64,000 bases of DNA from Maribacter algarum (ex Zhang et al. 2020) (lineage in GTDB: Bacteria > Bacteroidota > Bacteroidia > Flavobacteriales > Flavobacteriaceae), in assembly GCF_005885635.1 (NCBI RefSeq), contig NZ_VATY01000001.1, positions 496,001 to 560,000 of the forward strand, given 5' to 3'. Positions 49,778 to 54,419 of this stretch are shown in pieces. A program made the position numbers and the translations under genes. The notes beneath the pieces are model-generated. The model saw only the letters and a list, made by a program, of their open reading frames with translations. It had not been told where the DNA came from and did not search any database. Each line of letters begins with the position of its first letter. Within the stretch, counting starts at the first letter, position 1.

Positions 49778-52507
49778 TTATTTTAGCTTTTTCGCAACAG
49801 CTACTTCTTGGAACGCTTCCACAATATCGCCTTCCTTGATATCATTGTAGTTCTTAATTTGAAGACCACAATCATACCCTTTTGCAACTTCTTTCACATC
49901 ATCTTTGAATCGTTTCAATGAAGCAAATTCACCTGTGTAAATAACAACCCCATCACGAATCAATCGTATGTTTGAGTTTCTATAAATCTTACCGATAGTT
50001 ACCATACATCCAGCAATGGTACCGATCTTAGAAATTTTGAAGGTCTCACGTATTTCAGCAGTACCTGTAATCTCCTCTTTCATTTCAGGAGAAAGCATTC
50101 CTTCCATAGCGTCCTTCAAATCATTTATGGCATCATAAATAATAGAATACATACGGATATCGATTTCTTCCTTATCGGCTATCTGCCTAGCATTGCCCAT
50201 TGGCCTAACATTGAATCCAATAATAACCGCATCGGAAGCAGAAGCCAACAATACATCTGATTCTGTTATCGGACCAACAGCTTTATGGATAATATTTACC
50301 TGTATCTCATCTGTGGACAATTTCTGGAAAGAATCAGTAAGTGCTTCTACAGAACCATCAACATCACCTTTTAAGATAATGTTCAATTCTTTAAAGTCGC
50401 CTAAAGCAATACGCCTTCCAATCTCGTCGAGTGTGATGTGACGTTGTGTTCTTACAGATTGTTCTCTCTGAAGCTGCGAACGTCTTGTGGCAATCTGCTT
50501 TGCTTCACGTTCATCATCCAATACATTGAATTTATCACCAGCTTGAGGTGCACCGTCCAATCCTAAAATAGAAATAGGCTGCGAAGGACCTGCTTTTTTT
50601 ACAATTTTACCTCGTTCATCCTGCATGGCCTTTACCTTACCACTGCAAGTTCCGGCGAGAACGTAATCACCAATTTTAAGGGTTCCTGCCTGCACCAAAA
50701 TAGTTGAAACATAACCTTTTCCTTTGTCCAAGAATGCCTCTACCACAGTACCATTGGCGAGCTTGTCTGGATTGGCCTTCAACTCCAATAATTCAGCTTC
50801 AAGCAATACCTTTTCTAATAATTCCTTAACACCATCACCTGTCTTGGCGGAAATATCGTGTGATTGTATTTTACCACCCCAATCTTCTACCAACAAATTC
50901 ATATTTGCCAAACCTTCTTTGATCTTATCAGGATTTGCGGTTGGTCTATCTATCTTATTAATTGCAAAAACAATGGGAACTCCCGCCGCTTGAGCATGAC
51001 TGATTGCCTCCTTAGTTTGTGGCATGATATCATCATCAGCCGCAATCACAATAATAGCGATATCAGTTACTTGAGCACCACGTGCACGCATCGCGGTAAA
51101 GGCTTCGTGACCCGGTGTATCTAGAAAGGCTATTTTTTGACCATCTGCTAATGTCACTCCATAAGCTCCTATATGCTGCGTAATTCCACCACTCTCCCCT
51201 GCAATAACGTTTTCTTCACGAATATGATCTAACAGCGACGTTTTACCATGGTCAACGTGACCCATTACCGTAACAATTGGAGCTCTTGGCTGTAAATCTT
51301 CTGGGGCATCTTCCGCCTCTTGAATCGTCTCCTCAATATCAGCGGTTACAAACTCAACATCATATCCGAATTCATCGGCAACAATAGAAAGTGTTTCAGC
51401 ATCCAGACGTTGGTTCATGGTTACCATCAACCCAAGTGACATACAAGCCGAAATAATCTCGGTGGTTGAGACATCCATCATGGTAGCAACCTCATTAGCT
51501 GTTACAAACTCGGTAACTTTAAGTGTTTTGCTTTCTATTTCTTGTAATTCAGCATCAACATCCATCTGTTCACGATGCTGCTCTCTCTTGTTTCTGCGAT
51601 ACTTCGCTCCTTTTCCTTTTTTCGATTTACCCTGAAGTTTCTCAAGAGTTTCACGAACTTGTTTTTGCACATCGGCTTCAGTAGGCTCGACCTTTGGCGC
51701 TCCAAAACGTTGCCCTCCTCCCTTACGATTTCCACCTCCGGAATTAGCACCTCTAGGACCTGTTCCTCTTCCGGAAGTTGAACCAGGCTTATTGCTAATA
51801 ATCCGTTTACGCTTACGCTTTTCGGTATTCGCTGCGGGCTTCGCTTCTTCTTTCTTTTTCTTCGGCTTTTGAAATTTGGTGAGATCTATCTTATCACCCA
51901 TAATTTTCGGCCCAGAAAGCTTTTTATATTGGGTTTGAATCTTCTCATCCACTGGAGCTTCCTCAGCAGCGGGCGTCTCACCTTCAGCAGCTTTGGATTT
52001 TACCTTAGCTTCAACAACCTCATCTGTCTTAACCTCATCTTTTGCAGATTTGGCAACCTCAGAAACCTTAGGCTCTTCTGCAGTAGGTGCTTCCTCTTTT
52101 ATTGGAGCTTCTTCTTTTACAGCAGCTTTCTCTTTTTTCTTCGGATTTAAATCTATTTTCCCAACAGTCTTTGGACCGCTAAGTTCGGCCTTAGCTTTGA
52201 TGACTTCCGAGGCAGCAGCTCGTTTCTCACGCGCCATCCTTCTTTCTTCTTGCTCCTGCTCTAATTGAACTCTAATAGCCTCTTTCTCTTTCCTCTTTTC
52301 CTCTCCAACTTCTTTTGATGCAACTTTCTTGCTCATATCAGTCTGGAACTCGTCCAACAACACCTGATGCACCTCTTCGGAAATCTTGGTGGTTGGGCGC
52401 GCCTCTATTTCATGGCCTTTTGACGATAGATAGTCCACCGCTCTGTCCAATGAAATATTAAGTTCTCTAAGAACCTTATTAAGCCTTATTGTTGCATTAT
52501 CTGCCAT
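49778..52507 (-). CDS. infB: Translation initiation factor IF-2
   Basis: 909 aa. An N-terminal IF2_N motif ('[25 protein letters not shown]') is followed by about 300 residues of low-complexity Lys/Glu/Ala and Gly/Arg-rich sequence. The G domain has '[19 protein letters not shown]', '[14 protein letters not shown]' and 'FAINKIDRP', and domains II-IV end in '[22 protein letters not shown]'. It brings initiator tRNA to the ribosome. Third gene of rimP-nusA-infB. Confidence 0.97.
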
Positions 52508-52559: not shown

Positions 52560-53792
52560 CTATTCTTCTAATTCTGCTTTTAGTATGCGTACAACTTCTG
52601 TAATTGTCTCTTCTTCAAGATCTGTTCTTTTAACTAGGTCCGCCACATCTTGCTCTAAAACACTTCTTGCCGTATCCATTCCTATTTTCTTAAACTCATC
52701 GATAATCCAAGCATCGATTTCATCTGAAAACTCGGTCAATTCCACATCTTCTTCAACACCTTCACGGAAAACATCAATCTCATAACCCGTTAATTGACCG
52801 GCTAATCGAATATTATGACCCCCTCTACCTATTGCTTTAGAAACTTCTTCTGGCTTCAAGTAAACTTGAGCTGTCATTTTCTCATCATTCAATTTTACCG
52901 ATGAAACTCGTGCCGGACTTAAAGCTCTAGTAACTAATAATTGAGGATTGTTCGTCCAGTTGATGACATCTATATTTTCATTCCCCAATTCACGCACAAT
53001 ACCGTGAATACGAGACCCTTTCATACCTACACATGCACCTACGGGATCGATACGGTCGTCATAAGAATCAACCGCCACTTTTGCTTTTTCCCCAGGTATA
53101 CGAACTGCTTTCTTAATAGAAATCAAACCATCAAAAACCTCAGGAATTTCTTGAAAGAATAATTGCTCTAAAAATCTAGGCGAACTACGCGACATGATAA
53201 TCGCAGGCTTGTTACCTTTCAATTCAACACTCTCAATAATACCTCTTACATTATCTCCTTTTCTAAAGAAGTCAGACGGAATCTGTCTGTCTTTCGGAAG
53301 AATAATCTCATTACCTTCATCATCTAACAAGATAATTGCCTTATGACGAATATGATGCACTTCGGCAGTATAAATTTCTCCTTCAAGATCCTTGAACTGT
53401 TTGTAAATTGTAGTATTATCATGCTCATGAATTTTAGAAATCAGATTCTGACGTAAAGCCAAAATTGCCCTTCTTCCTAAATCCATTAACTTTACTTCCT
53501 CAGACACATCTTCTCCAACTTCAAAATCAGGCTCTATTTTTTGAGCTTCAGAAAGTGAAATTTCTTCATTAGGCTCCTCAACTTCACCATCTTCAACTAC
53601 GATACGGTTTCTCCATATCTCCAAATCCCCTTTGTCGGGGTTGATGATTATATCAAAGTTATCATCCGATCCAAACTTTTTCTTCAGGGCATTTCGAAAT
53701 ACATCTTCCAAAATAGCCATCAACGTTACTCTATCTATGAATTTATCATCTTTAAACTCTGAGAAAGATTCTATTAACGCAATATTTTCCAT
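52560..53792 (-). CDS. nusA: Transcription termination/antitermination factor NusA
   Basis: 410 aa, shorter than E. coli NusA (495) because it lacks the two acidic C-terminal repeats, as is usual outside proteobacteria. Order: NusA N-terminal domain (1 to about 130), S1 ('GEIYTAEVHHIRHKAIILLDDEGNEIILP'), KH1 ('DRIDPVGACVGMKGSRIHGIVREL') and KH2 ('AIGRGGHNIRLAGQLTGYEIDVF'), then a short acidic tail. The gap to rimP is 14 nt. NusA stabilises hairpins and pausing, which is relevant to the terminator-like leader of its own operon. Confidence 0.96.
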   Translation of the reverse strand: MENIALIESFSEFKDDKFIDRVTLMAILEDVFRNALKKKFGSDDNFDIIINPDKGDLEIWRNRIVVEDGEVEEPNEEISLSEAQKIEPDFEVGEDVSEEVKLMDLGRRAILALRQNLISKIHEHDNTTIYKQFKDLEGEIYTAEVHHIRHKAIILLDDEGNEIILPKDRQIPSDFFRKGDNVRGIIESVELKGNKPAIIMSRSSPRFLEQLFFQEIPEVFDGLISIKKAVRIPGEKAKVAVDSYDDRIDPVGACVGMKGSRIHGIVRELGNENIDVINWTNNPQLLVTRALSPARVSSVKLNDEKMTAQVYLKPEEVSKAIGRGGHNIRLAGQLTGYEIDVFREGVEEDVELTEFSDEIDAWIIDEFKKIGMDTARSVLEQDVADLVKRTDLEEETITEVVRILKAELEE

Positions 53793-53806: not shown

Positions 53807-54268
53807 TTAAAATTTAAGTATAACTTTTGCTTCTTTTATCTCAGAAAAATTAATCTCTTTCTTCTTCTGAACTGTATGCTTCCCTTTTCCTATGGGTTTG
53901 GGTTCCCGTGCTTTCCACTCTAAAACGATATTATCTTCTGTAGCCGCCGTCAAATTACCTTCAAAGGTTTCCTCAGCTGTTCTAACTGCTACTTTCCTAC
54001 CAACATTCTTTTTATACTGACGCGGCAAAACCATCGGCGAAGCGGCTCCTGCCGAAGCTACTTCCAAAGAAAAGTCTTGCTCTTCCCGATCTAAATTATG
54101 CTCAATTGCGCGACTGATTTTCATGCAATCTTGAACTGTAACCCCTTTATCTCCATCTAAAACCACATTGATTTTGTTATCCGTAGAGATAGAAAAATCA
54201 ATCAAAAACAGATTTCCATCTTCCTCTAATGCATCATTCAAAAGTGTCTCGACCTGCTTTTTAAACAT
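53807..54268 (-). CDS. rimP: Ribosome maturation factor RimP
   Basis: 153 aa, standard length. The family motif 'LDGDKGVTVQDCMKISRAIEHNLD' and 'SLEVASAGAASPMVLPRQYKKNVGRKV' are present (the usual SPG is AGA here). It assists 30S subunit maturation. It heads rimP-nusA-infB behind a leader of about 114 nt with three hairpins. Confidence 0.94.
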   Translation of the reverse strand: MFKKQVETLLNDALEEDGNLFLIDFSISTDNKINVVLDGDKGVTVQDCMKISRAIEHNLDREEQDFSLEVASAGAASPMVLPRQYKKNVGRKVAVRTAEETFEGNLTAATEDNIVLEWKAREPKPIGKGKHTVQKKKEINFSEIKEAKVILKF

Positions 54269-54291
54269 ATCTTTTATCTAATTTTGAAAGA

Positions 54292-54332
54292 CCCTGAAAT
54301 TTTTCAGGGTTGCTGAAACAAAGTTTCAGCAA
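54292..54332 (-). promoter_or_regulatory. Two tandem hairpins in the rimP leader
   Basis: ACCCTGAAA/TTTCAGGGT (54292-54310) and TTGCTGAAAC-aaa-GTTTCAGCAA (54310-54332), the latter a perfect 10-bp stem. Both are in the leader RNA between a terminator-like hairpin and the rimP start. They share sequence (CTGAAA/TTTCAG), so alternative pairing between them is possible. Confidence 0.65.
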
Positions 54333-54333
54333 T

Positions 54334-54358
54334 AAAAAAGAGGACTTAATGTCCCCTC
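54334..54358 (-). terminator. Terminator-like hairpin inside the rimP-nusA-infB leader
   Basis: In the minus-strand RNA: GAGGGGAC, loop AUUAA, GUCCUCUU, then a U-tract (the A6 at 54334-54339 on the plus strand). The 8-bp stem uses G-U wobbles that become A-C mismatches on the plus strand, so it works only for the minus direction. No minus gene lies between it and the promoter, so it can only act on the rimP transcript. Confidence 0.7.
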
Positions 54359-54388
54359 ATGAATAAAAAATCTATCCTTTCAGTCGCG

Positions 54389-54419
54389 CAAATATACATT
54401 TATTTTTGTTTTTCTGCAA
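54389..54419 (-). promoter_or_regulatory. Promoter of rimP-nusA-infB
   Basis: Minus strand: TTG at 54419-54417, a 20-nt spacer, then TATATTTG at 54396-54389 (exact TAnnTTTG). Transcription should begin near 54382, giving a leader of about 114 nt. Confidence 0.72.

Follow-up and report, generated by a model that had tools for sequence, protein, structure and literature searches.

The leader of the rimP-nusA-infB operon of Maribacter algarum carries a terminator-like hairpin (T1) and a U-run close behind its promoter. This arrangement is conserved across the class with compensatory changes in the hairpin arms, and it stands before nusA in most of the examined genomes in which RimP was not found. 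The element was read as a promoter-proximal transcription attenuator of the operon, with a probability of about 0.65 for this reading. We infer that transcription is partly terminated at T1, that NusA probably stimulates this termination, and that the resulting feedback limits the operon.

The hairpin T1 and its promoter

The window analyzed is a stretch of 64,000 nt. According to gene calls and Pfam domains, its minus strand carries rimP (53807..54268; PF02576 and PF17384 above cut-off), nusA (52560..53792; PF08529 and PF13184 above cut-off) and infB, encoding IF2 (49778..52507; PF11987 and PF04760 above cut-off), consecutively in this order. rimP is the first gene of the operon, and nusA is probably both its regulated and its regulating gene. 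The nearest named kin of the genome are Maribacter, Zobellia, Muricauda and Arenibacter (Flavobacteriaceae). Upstream of rimP, a promoter was recognized by sequence reading at 54389..54419 (minus strand), composed of TTG (54419-54417), a 20-nt spacer and TATATTTG (54396-54389). The latter has the form TAnnTTTG, which we take to be the Bacteroidota promoter type. Judged from the usual promoter spacing, the transcript presumably starts at A54384, and the leader counted from this position is 116 nt long.

T1 (54338..54358, minus strand) was delineated from sequence, folding and conservation. It reads GAGGGGAC-ATTAA-GTCCTCTT and forms 8 bp, two of them G-U pairs, with the 5′ arm at 54358-54351, the loop at 54350-54346 and the 3′ arm at 54345-54338. 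The corresponding minus-strand RNA is GAGGGGAC-AUUAA-GUCCUCUU followed by the U-run (54358-54334), and the hairpin combines a G-rich 5′ arm with a C-rich 3′ arm (GAGGGGAC/GTCCTC). The U-run, defined by sequence and clade alignment, consists of six T (54334..54339, minus strand), the first two of which also close the stem. T1 begins about 26 nt past the likely start, and the U-run ends 65 nt before rimP. These positions agree with the first-pass annotation, which had described a promoter followed some 25 nt later by a hairpin and U-tract. Its observation that this stem pairs well only in minus-strand RNA was borne out by the folding energies (-10.2 kcal/mol for the minus-strand RNA vs -6.3 kcal/mol for the plus-strand RNA).

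The 130-nt stretch 54385-54256 folded with z = -4.56, beating 200/200 dinucleotide shuffles. A simple search for terminators over 49-58 kb showed no excess (8 found vs 6.3 expected, sd 2.5). The lone sequence is thus unremarkable in such a scan, and the evidence beyond chance comes from conservation. The T1 pattern gave one match within the window, where 0.1 was expected. When up to 3 mismatches were allowed in the whole genome, the leader itself was the single match, and a reversed control pattern gave 3.

Conservation and covariation of T1

The rimP leaders of relatives were compared. The first 40 relatives fetched (13 of the same genus, 27 of the same family) were ranked by RimP similarity and are therefore skewed to near kin. 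Together with the window's own leader they make up 41 clade leaders, and a hairpin with U-run preceded rimP in 41/41. All 40 relatives have TATATTTG or TATCTTTG, CTGAA, TATTC[A/G]T and the hairpin, which was also present in 80/80 named genomes, partly the same as these relatives. In the wider family, the hairpin was seen in 40/40 rimP upstream regions for which the clade-trained CM R1 listed no match, and in 57/57 when 17 regions chosen for a model match were included. At the level of the class, 103/110 rimP upstream regions reached a terminator score of 18, compared with 10/550 shuffled regions. The same scan was positive for 4/45 genes of the window, rimP being one of the four. The 110 regions derive from 150 listed RimP rows (173 genomes had RimP), after the window's own genome, G488 (contig edge), G430 and the last 37 rows were left out. 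Seven of the 110 regions gave no scan match, among them L290, which has a hairpin with a T-poor tail. In L291, L313 and L319 (family f52), rimP lies about 30 nt or less past a TAACTTTGC promoter and no hairpin was seen, which by sequence looks like an apparent loss of the attenuator. The class hairpins of L242, L271 and L334 lie at a greater distance upstream, with about 150-185 nt separating them from the RimP domain.

The 5′ arm was G-rich in 91/102 class hairpins and C-rich in none, and it ended in GGGGAC in 64/102. In other classes of the phylum, a terminator-like hairpin was found in 20/26 rimP upstream regions, an uneven sample taken from the best-scoring RimP rows. Only 7 of these 20 hairpins had a G-rich 5′ arm; others had TCGCCC/GGGCGA or similar arms. 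As far as the sequences tell, the terminator persists across the phylum but its letters do not, and the arm sequence is not universal.

The distance from TAnnTTTG to the hairpin was 27-31 nt in 40/40 scored clade leaders (of 41), 22-31 nt in 56/57 family leaders and 6-29 nt (median 21.5) in 98/102 class leaders. Because these distances are short in family and class leaders, the terminator is promoter-proximal. The terminator-like attenuator that had been proposed between the promoter and rimP of the nusA operon therefore has, in its sequence form, class-wide conservation. Some relatives carry a tRNA gene on the same strand, upstream of the leader promoter (two leaders by Rfam, four by eye), which can be likened to metY upstream of rimP in E. 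coli.

The two arms of T1 were found to change together. Compensatory changes include GAGCGGAC/GTCCGCTC and GAGAGGAC/GTCCTCTC in the wider family, and GCGGGGAC/GTCCCCGC, CAGGGGAC/GTCCCCTG and AGGGGTC/GACCCCT in the class. Over the 42 different arm pairs of the class, pairing reached 97.9% of cells, a level that leans upward because the scan selects paired arms, compared with 74.2% (maximum 79.5%) in 1000 re-dealings of the identical arms. Within the 41 clade leaders there were no two-sided and three one-sided changes; the arms barely vary there. Covariation in relatives, which the first-pass annotation had looked to, thus stood for T1 in the class and not within the clade alone.

Searches with a fixed motif and with models were also carried out. 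The exact motif GAGGGGACN{3,9}GTCC occurred in 94/198 class genomes. Among the 150 genomes for which a RimP position was listed, 43 have it near rimP on the right strand; at least 37 additional rows lay elsewhere, and 2 were near rimP on the opposite strand only; this placement is drawn from 111 listed rows, generally with one strand per palindromic pair. Given these class counts and off-rimP matches, the exact 8-mer is not found in every rimP leader, nor is it confined to them. R1 matched in 105/299 family genomes. It models the clade only, because no R1 match was listed in the 40 wider-family genomes that have the hairpin. Three of 20 fetched, mostly weak family matches of R1 were ordinary terminators elsewhere and were rejected. 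In the class, R1 gave 21 matches beyond the window's own rimP leader, and reading of the downstream frames showed that 8 precede rimP and 13 do not. Rfam at gathering gave no match on the window except a tRNA elsewhere, nothing usable and no RF01770 on the leader at E up to 10, and two tRNAs only on eleven relatives.

Target, effector and other readings of the leader

To assign the element to a gene, genomes lacking RimP are informative. The trial set comprised 25 of the 40 genomes that failed the first RimP search (19/25 from the class and 6/15 from the family), and NusA was found in 16 of them. A RimP profile then detected rimP in G398 and G475, where the hairpin precedes rimP, and in three positive controls. 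G398, G475 and G458 (contig edge) were set aside, leaving 13 genomes, whose lack of rimP is judged from draft assemblies; in these the profile found no RimP save a short match (E = 0.05) on another contig of G448. The hairpin was present before nusA in 10/13, compared with 12/650 shuffled regions. All ten hairpins have a G-rich 5′ arm, and from their ends to the NusA domain there are 46-179 nt, a gap that leaves no room for rimP. The 13 genomes represent few lineages: the ten with a hairpin fall in five families, with five of the ten coming from one genus, and one of them, G017, is a member of the same family as the window. The misses were G425, G354 (imperfect hairpin visible) and the 0.5-Mb genome G334. 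These results indicate that the element is tied to the nusA transcription unit, not to rimP. Since the hairpin precedes nusA where RimP is undetected, RimP alone appears unlikely as target or effector. The remaining candidate effectors would be NusA, or IF2, whose gene infB lies behind nusA and travels with it. In two nearly complete Flavobacteriaceae genomes (G053 and G117), neither RimP nor NusA_N was found, possibly reflecting a missing stretch and not a true absence.

How the level of NusA, a core elongation factor, is controlled has been learned mostly from E. coli and B. subtilis. In the attenuation proposed here, RNA polymerase would start near 54384 and make the G-rich hairpin some 26 nt on. 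Some of the polymerases would stop at the U-run and free a transcript of about 50 nt, and the remainder would read into the operon. NusA, a product of the operon, would raise termination at the hairpin and thereby exert feedback on its own operon. Because there is no conserved antiterminator, the simplest controller would be a protein acting on polymerase at the hairpin, and NusA is the best candidate if the B. subtilis mechanism is applied to Bacteroidia.

The same lack of an antiterminator would also fit a fixed partial terminator, which allows constant low readthrough or yields a stable short RNA and answers to no signal, as would the structure kept outside the class while the arm letters change. 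The strong primary-sequence conservation within the class, with GGGGAC in 64/102 hairpins, and the precedent of NusA autoregulation speak against it, and we regard a fixed terminator as unlikely but worth keeping in view. The hairpin might instead act on the finished mRNA, protecting its 5′ end or limiting ribosome access at rimP. A start codon 12-14 nt past the U-run in 25/41 clade leaders, and a similarly short spacing by eye in most of the wider-family leaders inspected, would suit such a role. However, clade leaders differ in this spacing (12 to 176 nt) while hairpin and U-run are constant, a U-run would be unnecessary for it, and the hairpin stands before nusA where RimP is undetected, so that action on the mRNA seems quite improbable. 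A third reading places control in alternative pairing, which the first-pass annotation had put forward beside NusA. Two more stems of 10 and 9 bp sharing CUGAAA had been described, and both are present in the window. The clade-specific second stem (54310..54332, minus strand) pairs TTGCTGAAAC (54332-54323) with GTTTCAGCAA (54319-54310) over 10 bp, and the weakly terminator-like third stem (54291..54310, minus strand) pairs ACCCTGAAA (54310-54302) with TTTCAGGGT (54299-54291) over 9 bp and is followed by CTTTC; A54310 is common to both. CUGAAA recurs at the 5′ end (54383-54378), and three CUGAAA/UUUCAG copies would allow competition between the terminator and stem 2, stem 3 or the 5′ end. The centroid fold does join the 5′ GAAA to UUUC downstream of stem 3, and the sister leader L044 retains stem 3 via a compensatory pair, its stem 2 having one pair compensated and one broken. 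However, the stem 2/3 region is missing from 50 of 88 distinct U-run-to-ATG extensions (three leaders and identical copies excluded), which are short (≤24 nt). Among the 38 long ones, a strict terminator-like second hairpin, the counterpart of stem 3, was found in only 5, compared with 17/760 shuffles; the carriers are the window, L044 and three other leaders. Moreover, predicted folds show no pairing that competes with the T1 arms. Of the two modes of control first suggested, NusA is thus retained as the best candidate, with the hairpin before nusA in 10/13 genomes, and alternative pairing becomes very hard to sustain.

Other features of the long leaders were compared. Several start with ATTGCTnAAACTTT, like the window. 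The 38 long leaders folded with a mean z of -1.06, 8 of them below -2, and the window's own z was -5.54. The first-pass annotation had named absence of the stems from close relatives as grounds for rejecting its reading. Stem 1 was kept in all of them, and stems 2 and 3 were largely absent. On this comparison stems 2 and 3 are real but clade-specific, belonging to some long leaders of the window's clade only; a tandem attenuator in these leaders is possible, a general switch is not. In six long leaders, a candidate helix TTGCT-GA-AACT / AGTT-GA-AGCAA was noticed, with changes such as TTAGT/ACTAA, and a hairpin TTCCG..CGGAA with a T-run follows it. A second regulatory RNA domain between the U-run and rimP is therefore possible in long leaders. 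It stays a lead, because the consensus is weak (nine seeds picked by eye for likeness) and the mean z over the 38 leaders is as given above.

Two conserved unpaired stretches precede the hairpin in the clade. CTGAAAGGATA (54373..54383, minus strand) is the conserved transcript start in the clade alignment, with CTGAA invariant in 41/41, and TATTCAT (54359..54365, minus strand) forms a block with TATTC invariant in 41/41 clade leaders. A plain terminator does not explain the conserved unpaired block. The AT of TATTCAT and the following G make up ATG (54360). A start codon abuts the 5′ arm of T1 in 40/41 clade leaders (ATG in 39, GTG in 1), and the mini-ORFs opened there begin MRG (VRG in one) and span 4 to 36 codons. 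In the window, a ribosome on this mini-ORF (MRGH-stop) might cover the 5′ arm, initiation capacity then setting readthrough. The near-constant position of the start codon favors this idea. On the other hand, one leader has ATA, the frames differ in length without a common peptide past MRG, the ATG is missing from many of the wider-family leaders inspected, and it is not independent evidence since conservation extends over the entire block; a mini-ORF switch can hardly be credited. For the Maribacter-Zobellia-Muricauda clade, a trans-acting factor or an initiating ribosome could conceivably read CTGAA, TATTC and the start codon, with initiation capacity and NusA together setting readthrough. 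The operon encodes IF2, and CTGAA and TATTC are invariant, unpaired and placed before the hairpin; we nevertheless hold this addition to the attenuator to be rather unlikely. An SD-like AAAGGA at the 5′ end was dropped, as relatives have AACGGA or AAAGAA.

Comparison with known leader elements

For F. psychrophilum, the accessible part of Guérin et al. (2021; PMC9723704), whose main text mentions rimP once, lists a structured element 5′ of rimP that is shared with further Flavobacteriaceae genera and has no Rfam hit. It shares gene and family with T1, and the two, set side by side by description, are likely identical. The Rfam family RF01770 (rimP) shares name and gene context. Its cut-off of 47 bits was reached in 0/20 genomes (12 of the own genus including the own genome, and 8 of the own order); the model is narrow, because it scored above cut-off in only 1/14 control genomes. 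The main text of PMC2965389 does not mention Bacteroidetes or Flavobacteria, and the words rimP and nusA are absent from that of PMC7366714. The open-licence literature searched gave no description of the element as a class-wide feature, or of its position ahead of nusA in genomes without rimP. If a promoter-proximal attenuator is present throughout the class and is retained before nusA where rimP seems to be missing, NusA feedback would reach into Bacteroidota as well, where its short leader (about 50 nt) would make it testable.

According to the part of a review available to us (PMC12288461), B. subtilis NusA controls its own expression by stimulating termination in the 5′ leader of its gene. 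The element described here likewise belongs to the nusA transcription unit, before rimP-nusA or, in 10/13 genomes, before nusA alone. The NusA effect is shown in B. subtilis, whereas here it would be carried over by analogy, and unlike the B. subtilis leader of 180 nt mentioned in the accessible part of PMC2965389, the terminator here is promoter-proximal.

The closest likeness is to the 'rimP-leader', presented in the accessible part of Naville and Gautheret (2010; PMC2965389) as the most ubiquitous attenuator, with NusA as the proposed factor. Its general form is described there as a G-rich 5′ arm, a C-rich 3′ arm and a T-stretch, without an antiterminator, 4-130 nt before the gene. The leader studied here shares the hairpin with its T-stretch, the location in the rimP-nusA-infB 5′ UTR (the start being placed from the promoter and termination from sequence form), the G-rich and C-rich arms, and a gap to the gene within 4-130 nt (65 nt in the window). 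It also shares the lack of a general antiterminator, as stems 2 and 3 are not general and none was seen in short leaders by reading. On the other hand, the exact GGGc(...)gCCC motif is replaced by GGGGAC...GTCCTC in the window, which has the C-G closing pair in common with it and an A-U pair parting this from the G run. In E. coli K-12, inspection of the sequence showed GGGC-N5-GCCC and seven T just before rimP. Further differences are the position of the clade hairpin 27-31 nt past TAnnTTTG, the conserved unpaired block, and the long leaders with extra stems. The label 'rimP leader' could be improved upon, since the element follows the nusA transcription unit and not rimP. Taken together, the best reading of the sequences is that T1 would represent the Bacteroidia form of the 'rimP-leader' attenuator, a kind of element already known.
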